This document shows positions 23,529 through 32,765 of a stretch of DNA of 34,834 nucleotides, in pieces. The translations under genes were made by a program, and so were the position numbers. The notes beneath the pieces were generated by a model, which was not told the DNA's origin, did no database searches, and worked only from the letters and a program-made list of their open reading frames with translations. The stretch's first letter is position 1, and each line of letters starts with the position of its first letter. The DNA is from Bacteroidota bacterium (lineage in GTDB: Bacteria > Bacteroidota > Bacteroidia > Cytophagales > Cyclobacteriaceae): positions 1-34,834 of the forward strand of contig JACZXH010000038.1 in NCBI GenBank assembly GCA_022571715.1. The letters are read 5' to 3'.

Positions 23529-24957
23529 GTAGCATTTGTTTTGCTTTTTTCGGGTCTGATAGGTCTTTTGTTTTTTTCATTATCTTTCCCATAAACATTC
23601 CCAGTAGCTTCTGTTTTCCATTCCTTAACATTTCTGTTTCCTTTGGATATTCTTCAATCACCTCTTTAACAGCTTTTACAAGCTCCTCCTCCTGTTCGGA
23701 AAATAAATGCATCTTTTCTGCTAATTTCACTATATCGCTTTCGGGAGTATCAAGCAATGCGGGAAAAAGTTTTCTGGAAGCAACTGAATAGCTCAATTTA
23801 CCGGATTCAATAAAACTAATTATTCCGGCAATTTGTTTCGGTACGAGTCTAAATTCTTCTATCTGAATTTTCCTTGAATTTAAAACCGTCAAAACCGGTC
23901 CCATTACCCAGTTGGCAGCCGATTTATAATTTCTGCATTCGATTGCTACAGATTCGAAGAATATTGCCAAACTGTCCGAACTTGTAAGTACCGAAGCATC
24001 GTAAACCGATAACCCAAATTCTGTTCTGAATCTTTGCTCTTTTTCAATTGGCAACTCCGGCATTTTGTTGCCTATACTTTCCAACCATTCGGTAGTTAAT
24101 AAAACAGGCGGAAGATCCGGGTCAGGGAAATACCTGTAATCTGTAAGTGTTTCTTTCGCACGCATTGTCGAAGTGTTGTCAGATGAAGGATTGTATGTAC
24201 GGGTTTCAGAAATAACCTCCTTCCCATTCTGCTTCAGAATTATTTGTCTTTTAATTTCTGACACAATGGCTTTTCGTACATTATTCAGTGAGTTCATGTT
24301 TTTAATTTCCACCTTCTGTCCCAGCTGAGCATCTCCTATGCGTCGTATCGAAATATTGGCATCACACCGCATTGAGCCTTCTTCCATATTTCCGTCACTG
24401 ATGCCAAGACAACGTACAAGCCTCCGTATTTCGTATAAAAATGCATATGCCTCGTCGCCTGAATGGAGAACCGGTTCAGTAACAATCTCAATTAGTGCAG
24501 TTCCTGCACGGTTAAAATCAATAAGTGTTCCATTTTTCGAGCTGTCGTGCATTAATTTTCCGGCATCTTCTTCAAGGTGAATCCGATTTAACGCTATTCG
24601 TTTATCTGAATGATTTGACCGGATATGAATGTTGCCTCCTTTACAAATCGGGATTCGATCCTGGGTGATCTGATACCCCTTCGGAAGATCGGGATAAAAA
24701 TAATTTTTCCTGTCAAATAAAACTTCCGGGGCAATTTGCGAATGGCAGGCCAGCCCCATTTTTACAGCATATTCAATCGCTTTTTTATTAACCCTCGGCA
24801 GTGTACCCGGATAACCAAGTGATATCTCACTGATAAGCGTATTTGGCTCCTGCCCATAATCATTGATATCGCTGGAAAATATCTTTGTGTTCAGCTGTAG
24901 CCTTACATGTACCTCCAGACCGATAATGGATTCAAACCGTGTATCAGCTACCTTCAT
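23506..24957 (-). CDS. gatB: Asp-tRNA(Asn)/Glu-tRNA(Gln) amidotransferase subunit B
   Basis: Binds misacylated tRNA and, with GatA and GatC, converts Glu-tRNA(Gln) or Asp-tRNA(Asn) to the amide form. The protein has 483 residues. It starts FESIIGLEVHVRLQLNTKIFSS; the signature LPKGYQITQ follows in YFYPDLPKGYQITQ, and further blocks are RIHLEEDAGKL, DFNRAGTALIEIVTEP and EIKNMNSLNNVRKAI. The C-terminal YqeY-like helical domain ends KKTKDLSDPKKAKQMLLDAL. ATG 24957 lies inside the last 14 bases of alaS, so translation is likely coupled. gatA and gatC are not in the window. Confidence 0.97.
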   Translation of the reverse strand: MKVADTRFESIIGLEVHVRLQLNTKIFSSDINDYGQEPNTLISEISLGYPGTLPRVNKKAIEYAVKMGLACHSQIAPEVLFDRKNYFYPDLPKGYQITQDRIPICKGGNIHIRSNHSDKRIALNRIHLEEDAGKLMHDSSKNGTLIDFNRAGTALIEIVTEPVLHSGDEAYAFLYEIRRLVRCLGISDGNMEEGSMRCDANISIRRIGDAQLGQKVEIKNMNSLNNVRKAIVSEIKRQIILKQNGKEVISETRTYNPSSDNTSTMRAKETLTDYRYFPDPDLPPVLLTTEWLESIGNKMPELPIEKEQRFRTEFGLSVYDASVLTSSDSLAIFFESVAIECRNYKSAANWVMGPVLTVLNSRKIQIEEFRLVPKQIAGIISFIESGKLSYSVASRKLFPALLDTPESDIVKLAEKMHLFSEQEEELVKAVKEVIEEYPKETEMLRNGKQKLLGMFMGKIMKKTKDLSDPKKAKQMLLDALKNT

Positions 24958-27595
24958 TTACCACGTAGTCCTTTGCTTTTTCAAGTGCACTATCCAGTCC
25001 GTTTATGTCCTTGCCGCCTGCTGTTGCAAAAAACGGCTGACCTCCTCCTCCTCCCTTGATTTCACGCGCCAATTCGCGCACGATTTTTCCAGCATGCATT
25101 CCCTTGCGGCTCACCAACGAGTCAGATATCATAACAGTGATCAGTGGTTTATCATTAACAACAGCGCCAAGTACCATAAATAAGTTTTCAACCTGGTTTT
25201 TAAGCTGAAAAGCAATGTTTTTGATTTCGGTCGAATCACTTATGTTCACCCTTTGGATGATCACGGAAGTACCATTTTTATTTTTAATGTTTCTGAGAAG
25301 TTCCTGTTTTACAGCACTGGACTGCTTTTGATGCAATAACTCAAGTTCAGCTTCGAGCTTCCTGTTTTCATTCTTTAGATTTTCAATGGCTGACGGAAGG
25401 TGTTTCGGATCGTTAAGCATTGTCTTTACTTCTCTAATAGTACCTTCCAGATCGTACACATATTTTTCGGCTGCTACCGCAGTTAATGCTTCAATCCTTC
25501 GTACTGAAGAGGCAATGGAACTTTCACTGACAATTTTAAAAAAGCCGATATGGCCAGTATGCGAAACGTGGGTGCCGCCGCAAAGCTCGATCGAAAATTT
25601 CTTATCAAAAATAATCATCCTTACTTTTTCTCCGTATTTTTCACCAAAAAGCGCCATCGCTCCCATTTTTTTTGCTTCTTTCAGTGGAACATCACGTTTT
25701 TCACCGATTGGAATATTTTCTCTTATCTTATTGTTCACAATCTCTTCTACTTTTTGTAGCTCCTCATCTGTCATTTTGGTGAAATGTGAAAAATCAAAAC
25801 GGAGAAGTTTATGATTGACCAGCGAGCCGCGTTGTTCTACGTGTGATCCGAGAACCTCCCGGAGGGCTGCATGCATCAGATGGGTTGCGCTGTGATTGTT
25901 CATAATAAGCAATCGGTTTCCTTTGTTGACCTTTGCTGTAAACGTACTATTTATCTTATCCGGAACTTTTTCAGCATAATGAATGATAAGGTTGTGCTCC
26001 TTTTTAGTATCAAATATCCGGATCTTTTCATCCTCATTTTGAATATAACCAGTATCTCCCACTTGTCCGCCGCTTTCAGCATAAAACGGTGTTTTGTCAA
26101 GTACAATCTGAACAATTTTCCGGTTTTTATCCTTCACATGGCGATATTTTATGATTTTCGATTCAACCTCAAGATGCTGATAACCAACGAATTCAACTGA
26201 TTTTTTACCTTTTAGTTCAATCCAGTCGCCCGTCTCAACCATTGCATCCGTACGCGAACGTTTTTTCTGTTTTTGAAGACATCTATTGAACTGTGTCTCC
26301 CATTTTTCAGATACTTTTTTCTCAAATCCACGCTCACGCAATATAAGCATAGTCAGATCTTTGGGAAATCCATAGGTGTCGTACAACTTGAATAATGTTT
26401 CACCAGTAATCTCAAATTCATCTTCCTTTCTTTTGCTGCTTAAAAATGTATCGATCATACGCAACCCTTTTTCAAGCGTTTTAAGAAAAGCCTGCTCTTC
26501 TTCTTTTATCACTCTTTTTACATGTTCCTGCTGCGCCTTGAGTTCGGGAAATACATTGATAAACTGTTTGGTCAGCAATGGTACGATCCGGTATAGAAAC
26601 GGTTCGTTAAAATTCAGATACGAAAATCCATACCTGACCGCCCTGCGCAGAATACGCCGGATCACATATCCTGCGCCGGTATTGGAGGGCAACTGTCCGT
26701 CGGTAATAGCGAAAGAAACTGCCCGGATATGATCTACCACAACCCGCAACGCAATATCGGTTTCTTCCAACTCACCGTATGTAACACCCGCATGGTTTCC
26801 CACAAACCGGATCAAAGGCTGAAACAAATCCGTATCATAATTTGAGGTTTTATGTTGGATGGCCATCGTAAGCCTTTCGAGGCCCATACCTGTATCTACA
26901 TGCTTTTGAGGTAAATTTTCAAGTATTCCTTTACTTGTCCGGTTAAATTGAATAAAAACAAGATTCCAGATTTCAATTACAAGCGGATGATCTTTATTAA
27001 CCAGTTCAAACCCAGGTGTTTTGCGGATCTCTTCCGCTGTACGAAGGTCAATATGTATTTCAGAACATGGACCGCATGGCCCTGTTTCGCCCATTTCCCA
27101 GAAATTATCCTTTTTGCCGAATGAAATGATGCGGTTATCAGGAAGAATTTTTCGCCATAAATTTAACGATTCCTCATCCGGCTGCAACTCTTCTGTCTTA
27201 TCACCTCCGAATACAGTGGCGTATAAACGATCTTCAGGAAGTTTATATTCAGATACCAGTAATTCCCAAGCCCAATTTATTGTTTCTTTCTTAAAATAAT
27301 TTCCAAACGACCAGTTGCCAAGCATTTCAAACATAGTATGATGGTAAGTATCAATTCCAACTTCCTCTAGGTCATTATGTTTGCCGGACACGCGCAAACA
27401 CTTTTGGGTATCGGCAATGCGGTTGTATTTACTCTTGATATTTCCTAAAAAAAAGTCTTTAAACTGATTCATCCCGGCATTTGTAAACATAAGTGTCGGG
27501 TCGTCTTTAACCACCAAAGGAGCGGAAGAAACAATTTCGTGTTTCTTTGATTTAAAAAATTCTAAAAACCGGTTTCTTACCTCCTCAGACTTCAT
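24944..27595 (-). CDS. alaS: Alanyl-tRNA synthetase
   Basis: Charges tRNA(Ala), 883 residues, the usual length. Domain order: class II catalytic core (RNRFLEFFKSKKHEIVSSAP, FTNAGMNQFKDFFLG, DTGMGLERL), tRNA-recognition helices, editing domain with zinc-type motifs HSATHLMHAAL and ELCGGTHVSHTGHIG, and C-Ala domain with GGGGGQPFFATAGG near the end. ATG 27595 is clear. It is the first gene of a leftward operon with gatB (14-base overlap) and the TlpA-like lipoprotein, and is divergent from the first M23 peptidase gene. Confidence 0.97.
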   Translation of the reverse strand: MKSEEVRNRFLEFFKSKKHEIVSSAPLVVKDDPTLMFTNAGMNQFKDFFLGNIKSKYNRIADTQKCLRVSGKHNDLEEVGIDTYHHTMFEMLGNWSFGNYFKKETINWAWELLVSEYKLPEDRLYATVFGGDKTEELQPDEESLNLWRKILPDNRIISFGKKDNFWEMGETGPCGPCSEIHIDLRTAEEIRKTPGFELVNKDHPLVIEIWNLVFIQFNRTSKGILENLPQKHVDTGMGLERLTMAIQHKTSNYDTDLFQPLIRFVGNHAGVTYGELEETDIALRVVVDHIRAVSFAITDGQLPSNTGAGYVIRRILRRAVRYGFSYLNFNEPFLYRIVPLLTKQFINVFPELKAQQEHVKRVIKEEEQAFLKTLEKGLRMIDTFLSSKRKEDEFEITGETLFKLYDTYGFPKDLTMLILRERGFEKKVSEKWETQFNRCLQKQKKRSRTDAMVETGDWIELKGKKSVEFVGYQHLEVESKIIKYRHVKDKNRKIVQIVLDKTPFYAESGGQVGDTGYIQNEDEKIRIFDTKKEHNLIIHYAEKVPDKINSTFTAKVNKGNRLLIMNNHSATHLMHAALREVLGSHVEQRGSLVNHKLLRFDFSHFTKMTDEELQKVEEIVNNKIRENIPIGEKRDVPLKEAKKMGAMALFGEKYGEKVRMIIFDKKFSIELCGGTHVSHTGHIGFFKIVSESSIASSVRRIEALTAVAAEKYVYDLEGTIREVKTMLNDPKHLPSAIENLKNENRKLEAELELLHQKQSSAVKQELLRNIKNKNGTSVIIQRVNISDSTEIKNIAFQLKNQVENLFMVLGAVVNDKPLITVMISDSLVSRKGMHAGKIVRELAREIKGGGGGQPFFATAGGKDINGLDSALEKAKDYVVNEGS

Positions 27596-27743: not shown

Positions 27744-28727
27744 ATGGCGCGTATAAAGTACTACTACGATACAGAGACTTGCAAATATGAGAGAGTAAAG
27801 GTATCAAAGTGGGATATCATACTTAATTTATTAGGGTTTTTTACTGTTTCTCTACTATTGGCCGTAGGGTTGGTATTTGTTTTTAACAAGTATTTTGAGT
27901 CACCTAATGAAATGATGTTAAGAAAGGAGAATGATGAGTTAACACTTCATTACAACATTCTTGGCAAGGAGATGACTTATGTAAAAGAGATGCTTACTGC
28001 GCTTCAGGAAAGAGATGACAACGTATACAGGGTGATTTTCGAAGCCGAACCCATTCCGGCAAATGTACGGGCTGCAGGTGCAGGTGGTTCTGATAAGTAT
28101 GCTTCTTTACTTAACGGAACGCTTGAAGAAGAAGAGCTCATTGTCAGGAATTATGAAATGATTGACAAAATCAAGCGGGAAATGTATATCCAAACCAAAT
28201 CCTATGATGAGATTCTGGAATTGGCGTTGAATAAATCTGATATGTTGGCGGCAATACCTGCCATACAGCCTATCAAGAACAAGGAATTAACTCGATTAGC
28301 AAGTGGTTTTGGGCGAAGGATTCACCCAATATATAAAGTAAAAAGAATGCATTGGGGAATCGATTTTTCTGCCCCCCGAGGAACACCGGTTTACGCAACA
28401 GGAAACGGCGTTGTAAAATTTGCTAAACACAGCTACTTGAAAACGGGTTATGGTAATCAGATTGAAATTGACCACAAATATGGCTATGTGACTAAATATG
28501 CACACCTTCAGGAAATTGTTGTGAGAAAAGGCGAAAATATCAAAAGAGGGCAACTTATTGGGTATGTGGGCAGTTCAGGTGGAAGCACTGCACCACATGT
28601 GCATTATGAAATCATCAAAAACAGCCAGAAACTCAACCCTATCCAATATATTATCCAGGATGTTTCGGATTTTGAATACCAGATTTTGCTTGAATTAGCT
28701 TCAAGAGAGAATCAATCATTAGGATAA
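27744..28727 (+). CDS. M23-family membrane-anchored peptidoglycan peptidase (copy 1)
   Basis: A zinc endopeptidase of the LytM/lysostaphin type, 327 residues. A short cytosolic tail (ARIKYYYDTETCKYERVKVS) leads to one transmembrane helix (about 25-47). A periplasmic coiled-coil stretch follows (KENDELTLHYNILGKEM; EEEELIVRNYEMIDKIKREM) and then the M23 domain from about residue 180. Metal ligands are intact: H203 and D207 in HWGIDF, and H285/H287 in HVHYE. It should cut peptidoglycan peptides at the envelope. It is divergent from alaS and followed by a terminator and its paralogue at 28795. Confidence 0.92.
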   Translation: MARIKYYYDTETCKYERVKVSKWDIILNLLGFFTVSLLLAVGLVFVFNKYFESPNEMMLRKENDELTLHYNILGKEMTYVKEMLTALQERDDNVYRVIFEAEPIPANVRAAGAGGSDKYASLLNGTLEEEELIVRNYEMIDKIKREMYIQTKSYDEILELALNKSDMLAAIPAIQPIKNKELTRLASGFGRRIHPIYKVKRMHWGIDFSAPRGTPVYATGNGVVKFAKHSYLKTGYGNQIEIDHKYGYVTKYAHLQEIVVRKGENIKRGQLIGYVGSSGGSTAPHVHYEIIKNSQKLNPIQYIIQDVSDFEYQILLELASRENQSLG

Positions 28728-28751
28728 TTATATTTCACGTTATATATTTAG

Positions 28752-28793
28752 GCCCGAAACAAACGCCCTTTGCGTTGCGGGCTTATTTTATTC
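28752..28793 (+). terminator. Rho-independent terminator between the two M23 genes
   Basis: GCCCG (28752-28756) and CGGGC (28778-28782) with an inner AACGC/GCGTT pairing make a GC-rich stem-loop, followed at once by TTATTTTATTC. The next gene starts at 28795, so the terminator ends right at its start codon. Confidence 0.7.
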
Positions 28794-28794
28794 T

Positions 28795-29769
28795 ATGGGA
28801 AAAATCCAATATTACTATGATCCAGATACGTGTAATTACGAAAAGGTAAAGCCGTCGAAGCTACGCCGGATCCGTTATGTAGTCATATACCTGTTGATGG
28901 CTCTGATCATTGCTTCGGGATCACTTTTAGTCTTGCACCGTTATTACCCCAGTCCCAAAGAAGCCAGATATTCTGCCGAACAACAAATCCTGGAAATGAA
29001 ATGGCAGCTTCTTGAAAAGGAAGTAGAAAATCTGAATTTCCTTATCGAGGCGCTGTGGGTACATGATGAAGAGATCCGTGTGATCCTTGAGCTCGACTCT
29101 TTGCCACTTAGTATTCGAATGGCTGGTATTGGTGGTACAAACTCTTTCAAGGATTTGTTATCACAGCGGCTTATTTTCGAGCGGAAAATTGTTTCAGCGT
29201 ATCGACGAATCGAAAAACTTAAAGCGAAATTACACATCCAGAAGGCCTCATTAGATACATTGGCGAATTACGCATATGAGCGTGATAAATTCTGGGCTTG
29301 TATACCGGCAATACAGCCGGTTGAAAATAAAGACTTACGTAGATTATCTACTGTATTTGGCATGCGCCTGCATCCGATCGACAATAAATGGAAACCTCAC
29401 CGGGGACTTGATTTTATGGGGAAAACCGGCGTACCTGTTTATTCTACTGGCCAGGGAACAGTGAAATTTGCACAATCAACTTATGGTGGATTTGGCAATC
29501 TGATCATCATTGACCACGGCTATGGATATAAAACGCGGTATGCACATCTGAATTCGTTCAACGTGATAAAAGGCCAGAAAGTTAAGCGGGGTAAACTGAT
29601 TGGGTATATGGGCAGTACCGGCAGATCAGCAGGTGTACATCTCCATTATGAAGTGTTGATAAATGGTGTACAGGTAAATCCAAGTGGTTTTTTTGAAAGA
29701 GAACTGGGCGAAAAGGAGTTTGCCAATCTGCTTGCCAAAGTAAAGCAGGTCACTATTCCGCTTGATTAA
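28795..29769 (+). CDS. M23-family membrane-anchored peptidoglycan peptidase (copy 2)
   Basis: Paralogue of the preceding gene with the same architecture, 324 residues: cytosolic tail GKIQYYYDPDTCNYEKVKPS, one transmembrane helix (about 26-47), coiled coil, and M23 domain. The ligands H202 and D206 (HRGLDF) and H282/H284 (HLHYE) are kept, so it should be active. The two proteins share the tail, the PAIQP-x-x-NK-(ED)-L block and the M23 fold but differ much in the coiled coil, so the duplication is old. ATG 28795 follows directly after a terminator, which suggests separate control or read-through. Confidence 0.92.
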   Translation: MGKIQYYYDPDTCNYEKVKPSKLRRIRYVVIYLLMALIIASGSLLVLHRYYPSPKEARYSAEQQILEMKWQLLEKEVENLNFLIEALWVHDEEIRVILELDSLPLSIRMAGIGGTNSFKDLLSQRLIFERKIVSAYRRIEKLKAKLHIQKASLDTLANYAYERDKFWACIPAIQPVENKDLRRLSTVFGMRLHPIDNKWKPHRGLDFMGKTGVPVYSTGQGTVKFAQSTYGGFGNLIIIDHGYGYKTRYAHLNSFNVIKGQKVKRGKLIGYMGSTGRSAGVHLHYEVLINGVQVNPSGFFERELGEKEFANLLAKVKQVTIPLD

Positions 29770-29898: not shown

Positions 29899-30073
29899 TT
29901 CGTTAGATAAAATAGGATATTAGTTGTATGATAAATTCGATCAAATTCAGATACTTTTTTTAGGGCTGTTCCGAATATTACTCTACGTTCATTCGTGGAA
30001 TTGAATTGCTTTTGTCACCGAAATAGATTTCAGCAGGTTTGCAATTCAAATATAATCAATAAATATTCTTGTA

Positions 30074-30108
30074 TTGGCTGTGTTCATACACAGTGTTTTT
30101 TAATTTTG
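30074..30108 (+). promoter_or_regulatory. Putative promoter for the CapA-like gene
   Basis: TTG (30074-30076), 24 bases, then TAATTTTG (30101-30108), 15 bases before ATG 30124. The -7 box is perfect and the spacing one base beyond the usual range. It supports the ATG start rather than the upstream in-frame TTG at 29995. Confidence 0.4.
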
Positions 30109-30123
30109 TTTGCTTTAGAATTT

Positions 30124-31296
30124 ATGCGGATACCGATTTACATATTTGTTGTTTTGCTGGCAGGATATATTATCAGTTCATGCAAAGTAAGTAAGACTGC
30201 CACAACACAGATAAGCACTACAGATACTATTCGGGTACAACTTGCTGACACAACCCTTATTTCCCCAGAAGTGACCATTCAGGATTCGGTCGAAATCGGA
30301 ATATTTCGAATTTTCCCTGATACGGTGACCATAATTGGTGTTGGTGATATTATGCTGGGTACGAACTTTCCTGATGCGGGATACCTTCCGGAAGATTCCG
30401 GTAAATTCCTGTTATCAAACGTAGCGTATATCCTCAACAGCTCAAATCTGACATTCGGAAACCTGGAAGGTGTACTACTCGATGACGGAGGAACGCCAAA
30501 AAACTGCCTGAATCCGGATAAATGTTATTTGTTCCGGATGCCTCAATACATGGCCGTTAACCTTCACCAGGCCGGTTTTGATGTGCTGAGTGTCGCCAAC
30601 AATCATTCGGGAGATTTCGGACCTAAAGGCCGGAGTACTACATCCCGTATTCTTGACAGCCTTCAGATTCATTTTGCCGGATATGATTCAAAACCCTTCA
30701 CGATATTTAAAAAAGATGGAATTATTTACGGATTTGCAGCATTTGCTCCTAACAAAGGCACCGCAAGCCTGAACGACCTGGATTCAGCTCGAAATATCAT
30801 TTTATATCTTGACTCATTAACAGATATTGTACTTGTGTCATTCCACGGTGGAGCCGAAGGCAAAGACCACCAGCATGTTAAGCGGGAAACAGAGACATTT
30901 TATGGCGAAAACAGAGGTAACGTATATGTATTTGCCCATGCACTTATTGATTCCGGAGCTGATATTATATTCGGACACGGACCTCATGTAGTCCGGGCAG
31001 TTGAAGTCTATAAAAGCAGATTCATTGCCTACAGTCTAGGGAATTTCTGTACCTACAAGCGATTTAATTTACGTGGTGAAAATGCGTACGCTCCCATAAT
31101 AAGAGTTTATACAGATCATACTGGAAAATTTCTTAAGGGAAAAATAATTTCAGCTATACAAACCGGCTTGGGGATACCTGTAATTGACACTGATAGCAAG
31201 GCGATAAAAAAAATAATAGCCTTGACAGAATCAGACTTTCCGGAAGGGAAAATTTTTATTGGTGATTCAGGTGTAATTACTTATCTTCAGAAATAA
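30124..31296 (+). CDS. CapA-family (PgsA-like) lipoprotein
   Basis: A metallophosphatase-fold protein of the poly-gamma-glutamate capsule CapA family, 390 residues. A lipoprotein signal ends at YIISSC (Cys19), then a Thr/Ser-rich linker and the CapA domain follow from about residue 70. CapA blocks are VGDIMLG, FGNLEGVL, LSVANNHSGDFG, VSFHGGAEG, IIFGHGPHVVRAVE and IAYSLGNF. No polyglutamate synthase genes are nearby, so a capsule role is not shown; many Bacteroidota have such lone enzymes. The in-frame extension to 29995 is AT-rich leader, not protein. MerR and dprA follow on the same strand. Confidence 0.88.
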   Translation: MRIPIYIFVVLLAGYIISSCKVSKTATTQISTTDTIRVQLADTTLISPEVTIQDSVEIGIFRIFPDTVTIIGVGDIMLGTNFPDAGYLPEDSGKFLLSNVAYILNSSNLTFGNLEGVLLDDGGTPKNCLNPDKCYLFRMPQYMAVNLHQAGFDVLSVANNHSGDFGPKGRSTTSRILDSLQIHFAGYDSKPFTIFKKDGIIYGFAAFAPNKGTASLNDLDSARNIILYLDSLTDIVLVSFHGGAEGKDHQHVKRETETFYGENRGNVYVFAHALIDSGADIIFGHGPHVVRAVEVYKSRFIAYSLGNFCTYKRFNLRGENAYAPIIRVYTDHTGKFLKGKIISAIQTGLGIPVIDTDSKAIKKIIALTESDFPEGKIFIGDSGVITYLQK

Positions 31297-31306
31297 TTTT
31301 ATCAAC

Positions 31307-31645
31307 ATGCCTTACAAAGAAAAAGTTATTGAGAAAAGATACTACTCGATTGGTGAAGTAGCAGCCATGTATGGAGTAGCCACATCCCTTATACGGTTTT
31401 GGGAAACTGAGTTTAGTATTCTCAAACCAAAGAAAAACAGAAAAGGAAACCGTCAGTTTACGAAGGAAGACGTTGATAATTTGAAACTTATCTATCACCT
31501 GGTGAAAGAGCGAGGTTTTACCTTAAGCGGTGCAAATGAAATGCTGAAGAATGAAAAAGGGGCTATGAAGGATAAAATCGAAATGATTGATTCATTGACC
31601 CGGGTAAAATCTTTTCTTATGCAAATGAAAAACGAATTGCCCTGA
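31307..31645 (+). CDS. MerR-family transcriptional regulator, DNA-binding domain only
   Basis: A protein of 112 residues, winged helix-turn-helix of MerR type: YYSIGEVAAMYGVATSLIRF (helix-turn-helix), then WETEFSILKP, NRKGNRQFTKEDVDNLKLIY (wing) and a coiled helix (VKERGFTLSGANEML). No ligand-binding C-terminal domain follows, only a short dimer helix. It lies 10 bases after the CapA-like gene and one base before dprA, so an operon is likely. Target and signal are unknown. Confidence 0.9.
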   Translation: MPYKEKVIEKRYYSIGEVAAMYGVATSLIRFWETEFSILKPKKNRKGNRQFTKEDVDNLKLIYHLVKERGFTLSGANEMLKNEKGAMKDKIEMIDSLTRVKSFLMQMKNELP

Positions 31646-31646
31646 G

Positions 31647-32765
31647 TTGAACGAGAAAGCATATCAACTTGCCCTCAGTTTCATCCCCGGAATTGGTGAT
31701 ATATTAATCAAACAACTCATCAGTTACATCGGCTCAGCCGAAGCTATTTTCTCCACTTCAAACAGTAAGCTCAGGAAAATACCCGGCATAGGTGAAAAAA
31801 TTGCAGAATCGCTAAAGAATACTGAAAATTACTTCCGGAAAGCCGAAGAGGAATATGAGAAAGTGCAAAAAGCTGGCGGTGTCATACTTTGTTACACCGA
31901 CAAAGATTATCCAAAAAAACTCAAAGAAATAAACGATGCACCTTGCATCGTTTATTATAAGGGTAACGGAGATTTAAACAACCCCAAAGTGATCTCCATT
32001 GTGGGAACCCGTAGTGCCACCTCTTATGGCAAACGGATCGTGGAAGAAATAATATCAGGTGTCAAAGACCATAACCCTTTGATTGTAAGTGGTCTTGCAT
32101 ATGGCATCGACATTCATGCACACAAGACTGCCTTAAAAAACGGACTTGAAACCATTGGGATAATGGCCTCAGGAATCGACATTATTTACCCCGGCATTCA
32201 TCGGAAGATAGCTTCCCAAATGATTGAATCAGGAGGTATAATGACGGAATACCTGACAGAAACAAAACCGGATGCACCACATTTTCCTACCAGAAACAGG
32301 ATCATTGCAGGCATGGCAGATGCAGTAATAGTCGTGGAAGCGGCAGAACGAGGTGGGGCCTTGATCACGGCCGAACTGGCAAACGGATATAACCGTGAAG
32401 TATTTGCCGTACCTGGCGATCTACACTCTTCTTATTCCGAAGGATGCAACAAGCTGATAAGAAATCATAAAGCCAGCATCCTTACCAATCCGAAGGACAT
32501 CGAATACTTATTAAGCTGGCCCGAAAGCGATCAAATACCAGATGAACCGGTTGATCTTACTGAATTAAACGAGCAGGAAAAAAACATTATCAGGCTATTG
32601 CAGTCATTCACCGACGGATTAATGGTAGACGAGTTAAGTTGGAAATCGCAGATCCCGATCAACCAACTGGCTTCAATCCTGCTTAATCTCGAATTTAGCG
32701 GGCTGATCGTGTCATTACCAGGCAAGAAATATAAACTAAACTTAAAATCGTTATTTAGAAAATAA
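31647..32765 (+). CDS. dprA: DNA processing protein DprA
   Basis: Binds incoming single-stranded DNA and loads RecA during natural transformation, 372 residues. An N-terminal SAM/HhH-like part (SFIPGIGDILIKQLI; RKIPGIGEKIAESL) is followed by the Rossmann DprA/Smf domain: SIVGTRSATSYG, SGLAYGIDIHAHKTAL, HFPTRNRIIAGMADAVIVVEA and RGGALITAELAN. A C-terminal winged helix (DGLMVDELSWKSQIPINQL) closes the protein. No in-frame ATG lies before the conserved domains, so TTG 31647 is the start, one base after the MerR stop. The gene is intact, so transformation ability is possible. Confidence 0.95.
   Translation: MNEKAYQLALSFIPGIGDILIKQLISYIGSAEAIFSTSNSKLRKIPGIGEKIAESLKNTENYFRKAEEEYEKVQKAGGVILCYTDKDYPKKLKEINDAPCIVYYKGNGDLNNPKVISIVGTRSATSYGKRIVEEIISGVKDHNPLIVSGLAYGIDIHAHKTALKNGLETIGIMASGIDIIYPGIHRKIASQMIESGGIMTEYLTETKPDAPHFPTRNRIIAGMADAVIVVEAAERGGALITAELANGYNREVFAVPGDLHSSYSEGCNKLIRNHKASILTNPKDIEYLLSWPESDQIPDEPVDLTELNEQEKNIIRLLQSFTDGLMVDELSWKSQIPINQLASILLNLEFSGLIVSLPGKKYKLNLKSLFRK

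Follow-up and report, generated by a model that had tools for sequence, protein, structure and literature searches.

Two M23 peptidase genes stand in tandem in the window (the whole stretch of 34,834 nucleotides that was analysed), and both products begin with a similar short tail ahead of a membrane helix, which raises the question of what such a tail does for enzymes whose site of action on peptidoglycan is the periplasm. In our overall reading, to which we give about an even chance of being right, the two enzymes (A and B, Table 1) would dock through a cytosolic hairpin tail on the bactofilin scaffold, by which their cutting in the periplasm would be placed. A literature search found no paper on this peptidase family or its tail within the open-access literature that it covered (subscription papers lay outside its scope). 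To this extent the statement of the initial annotation that no function had been described was correct, although a close precedent, the tail hairpin of LmdC, was published in 2024. One paper on Riemerella (PMC7881567) was set aside, "M23" being there the name of a mutant.

Tandem M23 peptidases with a common tail

As the initial annotation had proposed, two M23 reading frames lie in tandem at this locus. Their products, 41% identical to each other, matched the Peptidase_M23 profile (PF01551) with 115.1 bits for A and 111.6 bits for B (gathering cut-off 28.7), and both carry the HxxxD and HxH motifs of M23 enzymes (H203, D207, H285 and H287). These four residues and H254, which we take to have metal or catalytic roles in the M23 domain, were invariant in a 35-row alignment that included A and B. 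The five top 19-residue hydrophobicity windows of each protein all begin at residues 25-30, and the first 26 residues of each hold 6 K/R against 3-4 D/E. Since M23 enzymes act in the periplasm, the first ~21 residues of A and B are probably cytosolic, and both proteins would be inner-membrane peptidoglycan endopeptidases with the N-terminus inside the cell.

Table 1. Positions of the genes, domains and predicted elements discussed in the text.
Feature	Position	Strand	Basis
alaS, divergently oriented neighbour that is kept in related loci	24944..27595	-	
M23 peptidase A (327 aa), with tail, membrane helix, coiled coil and M23 domain	27744..28727	+	
Tail of A, residues 1-21, MARIKYYYDTETCKYERVKVS	27744..27806	+	cytosolic side probable
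Hairpin predicted in A (beta-strands at residues 6-9 and 14-17)	27759..27794	+	AlphaFold2, 35-row alignment
Predicted membrane helix of A, residues 22-50	27807..27893	+	AlphaFold2 and hydrophobicity
M23 catalytic domain of A, residues 201-299	28344..28640	+	profile and alignment
M23 peptidase B (324 aa), the tandem paralogue of A	28795..29769	+	
Tail of B, residues 1-21, MGKIQYYYDPDTCNYEKVKPS	28795..28857	+	cytosolic side probable
M23 catalytic domain of B, residues 201-296; invariant positions as in A	29395..29682	+	
PGA_cap (capsule-synthesis-type) gene, between B and MerR	29995-31296		
Small MerR-type protein, conserved downstream neighbour	31307..31645	+	

Conservation of the tail

Between A and B, 13 of the 21 tail residues are identical, compared with 44 of 149 in the membrane helix and coil (Fisher P = 0.006, tail against helix and coil) and 62 of 126 in the catalytic domain, in agreement with the earlier claim that the tail had been kept while the coiled coils diverged. 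For the wider family, 128 proteins with an intact N-terminus were collected, a set from which three loci repeating the window were omitted and in which some species are present twice, from two collections; 33 representatives were taken from it. Among these representatives the mean information was 2.35 bits in tail residues 4-19, 1.10 bits in residues 20-26, 1.25 bits in the membrane segment (27-50), 1.91 bits in the coil (51-170) and 2.55 bits in the catalytic domain (180-305). Conservation in the N-terminal part is not confined to the tail: a 16-residue segment of the coil beginning at residue 90 reached 2.63 bits, against 2.53 bits for the segment that starts at residue 1. Low conservation of the tail beyond the two copies, which the initial annotation had named as the outcome that would speak against it, was not observed, the tail being conserved across the 128 proteins.

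The consensus of the tail was K-Y-x-[YF]-[DN]-x-x-[TS]-[LC]-x-Y. Position 13, at which an invariant cysteine had been announced, was occupied by L in 106 of the 128 family proteins and by C in 15, the other seven having V (3), Q (2), I (1) or D (1). That claim was wrong: the cysteine is a lineage-specific replacement of leucine. A conserved redox or lipid-anchor signal at this residue was ruled out on the same counts.

A tail-only profile run against 19 relatives gave 24 strong matches (E = 1.2e-7 or better), all in open reading frames of 326-349 aa (those not read were taken as M23 by size), and then nothing before E = 0.055, so that the tail match is not due to chance. The conserved tail is common to a family of M23 peptidases spread through the Bacteroidota, hereafter called tail-M23; the assignment to this phylum follows the titles of 80 named loci. 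The idea that the tail is a general sorting tag carried by other proteins was rejected, no match outside the 326-349 aa reading frames of the 19 relatives being better than that same E-value.

Predicted structure

AlphaFold2, run on A with the 35-row alignment, predicted a hairpin and then a membrane helix (E6-9/E14-17, then H22-50), which is the arrangement expected of an LmdC-type enzyme and is present here by prediction. The model of A had a mean pLDDT of 84, with values of about 70-79 over the first 20 residues, a moderate confidence for the hairpin. The top Foldseek matches in the PDB were the Helicobacter Csd1-Csd2 dimers, Neisseria NMB0315 and ShyA, with about 150-170 columns covered. 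A search of the tail-only profile against solved structures returned none with the tail at E <= 10.

Gene neighbourhood of tail-M23

The neighbourhood was read in 80 named loci, the best 80 of 360 matches, which describe the closer part of the tail-M23 family. Among these best 80, alaS lay upstream on the opposite strand in all 75 loci whose upstream stretch exceeded 800 bases. Downstream, where 77 loci had more than 600 bases, 73 showed a MerR match, its start often 3-40 bases past the end of the M23 gene; tandem tail-M23 copies occurred in 10 of the 80. Besides the window, eight loci titled Bacteroidales or Bacteroidetes (L083, L101, L075, L099, L106, L108, L113 and L116) have tandem copies, with tails unlike those of the window pair, which may represent a separate duplication.

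Downstream in the window, B is followed by the PGA_cap gene, MerR and then dprA. PGA_cap matches were found in 4 of the 80 related loci, which are of limited length (L039, L040, L041 and L109). merR and dprA (together 31307-32765) are separated by one base, the start codon of dprA having been listed mechanically, and the two genes are still adjacent in a number of genomes from which the M23 gene is absent.

In five genomes of three families that lack bactofilin, the M23 gene is absent from an alaS/MerR locus that is itself kept. The MerR region was read in ten genomes, nine without tail-M23 and one control (G273), and none of the nine has a bactofilin (PF04519) match. In G166 and G436 (family f2), G320 and G334 (f63) and G080 (f4), all bactofilin-less, alaS and MerR were immediate neighbours in divergent orientation, separated (counted from match to match) by about 120-280 bases that hold no M23 gene. 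Two other genes lay between alaS and MerR in G261, and no alaS match was found within the stretch read around MerR in G076, G111 and G012. The control showed the order alaS, M23, MerR.

Co-inheritance with bactofilin

With a full-length query, the 296 genomes of the phylum sample were divided into 180 with both genes, 57 with M23 only, 7 with bactofilin only and 52 with neither. This count was misleading, as 49 of the 57 M23-only genomes belong to family f17; in the 13 f17 genomes whose loci were read, with or without bactofilin, the match begins only at about residue 108-166 and there is no tail. Because tail-less f17 matches had been counted, the genomes were recounted, each being searched with a profile of residues 1-120 for tail-M23 and with PF04519 for bactofilin. 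In the phylum sample (n = 296), 146 genomes had both, 7 tail-M23 only, 41 bactofilin only and 102 neither, so that bactofilin was present in 146 of 153 genomes with a match to the N-terminal profile and in 41 of 143 without; this profile misses diverged members, and 34 of the 41 bactofilin-only genomes (6 of them f17) had shown an M23 match in the earlier count. The class members of the phylum sample (n = 73) gave 45, 5, 3 and 20 genomes in the same categories. In a sample of the window's order (n = 177) the figures were 117 with both, 2 with tail-M23 only, 16 with bactofilin only and 42 with neither (Fisher P = 6e-25); seven of the 16 bactofilin-only genomes were from family f58 and several were incomplete assemblies. 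At the genus level, 85 of 89 were concordant, and permutation within families gave P = 1.5e-4 (about 1.5 of 10,000 shuffles), the co-inheritance tests resting on family labels and not on a species tree.

Two controls were available for the order sample. Close MerR matches (E <= 1e-14) were uncorrelated with tail-M23 (93 genomes with both, 26 with tail-M23 only, 48 with MerR only and 10 with neither; P = 0.55). PF06723 (MreB) matches were found in 177 of 177 genomes (169 strong, E < 1e-70, and 8 weak, possibly cross-hits), so that a wholesale loss of MreB-based elongation was rejected as the driver.

Tail-M23 without a PF04519 match was detected in six genomes of 99-100% completeness (G126, G150, G178, G230, G238 and G096) and in one of 84% (G288), and, in the order sample, in two that are both 92% complete (G357 and G417). 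In G126 and G150 the tail appears intact and ordinary. Because complete genomes retain tail-M23 in this way, bactofilin cannot be the sole keeper of the gene or of its tail. A strict client should occur alone less often than bactofilin does, which holds in the order (2 vs 16) but fails in the class sample (5 vs 3). Moreover, since the whole gene is lost or co-inherited, the correlation is not specific to the tail.

A second M23 peptidase beside bactofilin

The genome of the window has one bactofilin match, on contig C97, while the window is contig C104, and A and B do not adjoin a bactofilin gene as an LmdC-type gene would. Directly upstream of this only bactofilin match lies the gene of an LmdC-like M23 peptidase (L119, 533-1881 on C97), for which a longer hairpin is predicted before the membrane helix (residues 14-20/28-34; mean pLDDT 70, hairpin about 64-75). 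The predicted strands of the bactofilin-adjacent M23 peptidases of Bacteroidota are seven residues long, against four in A, and comparison of the tail-M23 tail with 11 such Bacteroidota tails gave no detectable homology (hhalign probability 0.1).

No ATG precedes the membrane helix in the LmdC-like gene of L119 and four relatives (L129, L139, L141 and L143), which have an apparent TTG or GTG start. Two further loci, L170 (genome G281, family f6) and L172 (G099, f4), come from genomes with bactofilin and without tail-M23, and encode a different membrane M23 whose tail reads like a longer hairpin; no alaS or MerR match was found there within the 3.3-3.5 kb examined.

Discussion

A functional link between tail-M23 and the bactofilin system is, in our judgment, probable, and for direct contact of the tail with bactofilin the balance is even. 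The first ~20 residues would form a small two-stranded beta-hairpin, of moderate predicted confidence, with one face that may carry the conserved aromatics Y6, Y8 and Y15 together with L/C13. This face would dock on the bactofilin polymer at the surface of the inner membrane, and crosslinks would then be cut in the periplasm where the scaffold lies, which suggests a role in wall patterning. The initial annotation had postulated a docking motif with an aromatic cluster, and wide conservation, the predicted hairpin and the co-inheritance with bactofilin favor that part of its proposal; the claim of an invariant cysteine, at a position mostly held by leucine, was wrong.

The enzyme could instead work in a bactofilin-dependent shape system with its tail bound to another cytosolic or inner-membrane part, as Csd1/Csd2 of H. 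pylori are reached via Csd7. The same co-inheritance counts in the class and order samples are compatible with this, as are the Csd1-Csd2 dimers among the top Foldseek matches, the six genomes 99-100% complete that retain the M23 gene without a bactofilin match, and the action of H. pylori CcmA on Csd1 through Csd7 (PMC9507126, partial text); we consider it unlikely, though far from negligible, given that LmdC makes direct binding of bactofilin by a hairpin tail possible (PMC10945521, partial text). Docking to the small MerR-type protein encoded downstream, which would tie the chromosome or regulation to a wall enzyme, is suggested by the proximity of the genes (73 of 77 loci, often 3-40 bases apart, among the best 80 of 360 matches), but close MerR matches (E <= 1e-14; not every one a proven orthologue) were present in 48 of 58 order genomes and 22 of 23 class-sample genomes without tail-M23, and were missing from 26 of 119 tail-M23 genomes of the order, which makes this partner very improbable.

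It is also improbable that the tail is a topology or folding element only, a positive-inside signal without a partner: the charge of the first 26 residues in both copies (6 K/R vs 3-4 D/E) is in keeping with such a role, but the aromatics are conserved at alternating positions, the adjoining residues 20-26 are poorly conserved (1.10 vs 2.35 bits in the tail) and AlphaFold2 predicts a hairpin. Little credence is given, finally, to shared lineage history as the only source of the co-inheritance; within a family both traits vary little, and the tests used family labels and not a species tree, but the genus-level permutation within families (P = 1.5e-4), the joint absences in f1, f2, f3, f63, f58, f4, f5 and f6, and the MerR gene of the same locus, which does not follow the pattern, all argue against it.

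With docking on bactofilin as the preferred reading, tail-M23 is best regarded as a second, unlinked family of bactofilin-linked M23 peptidases with a hairpin of its own, a variant of the LmdC arrangement and not a proven member of it. Tentatively, and with somewhat less than even confidence, we propose that Bacteroidota bactofilins recruit two M23 endopeptidases via unrelated hairpins, the LmdC-like operon partner and the unlinked enzyme with KYxY(D/N)xxTLxY. If this is true, hairpin docking on bactofilin would have arisen at least twice and would serve generally to position wall hydrolases from inside the cell; in Bacteroidota, bactofilins would then act on several hydrolases, and bactofilin phenotypes there must allow for a second client. 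A likely cytosolic partner can be named for a family of wall hydrolases that occurs across the phylum and for which no described function was found in the open-access literature, and the 20-residue motif is directly testable.

Comparison with known systems

In their catalytic domain A and B resemble the MepM/ShyA-type M23 DD-endopeptidases, scoring 97-108 bits for MepM and 102-106 bits for ShyA over a matched stretch that comprises the catalytic domain and its flanks only; they fall outside both NCBIfam equivalogs (at most 108.2 bits vs a cut-off of 341, and 106.2 vs 700). Csd1/Csd2 of Helicobacter pylori are likewise a pair of M23 paralogues, in a bactofilin-dependent shape system, and are tied to CcmA through Csd7; Csd2 is catalytically inactive (PMC9507126, partial text), whereas A and B both retain the conserved catalytic-domain residues, and the Foldseek likeness to this pair covers about 150-170 columns only. 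For H. pylori, an interaction of CcmA with any one of Csd1, Csd2 and Csd7 alone has reportedly been excluded (PMC12468929, partial text), which counts against direct docking of the tail on bactofilin.

PbpC of Caulobacter has a short N-terminal cytosolic tail that is recruited by the bactofilin BacA (PMC12448750, partial text) and is similar in this respect, by description only, to tail-M23; it is a penicillin-binding protein and not an M23 peptidase, and its tail region is different. LmdC, an M23 peptidase of Hyphomonas neptunium and Rhodospirillum rubrum, is a client of the bactofilin BacA, to which its tail hairpin binds with a KD of about 15 uM, and a substitution in the hairpin abolishes recruitment (PMC10945521, partial text). 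The lmdC gene adjoins bacA, whereas the window genes adjoin alaS and MerR; in its architecture, as described in the same partial text, LmdC is a bitopic M23 peptidase like A, with a short cytosolic tail bearing a predicted beta-hairpin, a membrane helix, a coiled coil and a C-terminal M23 domain.
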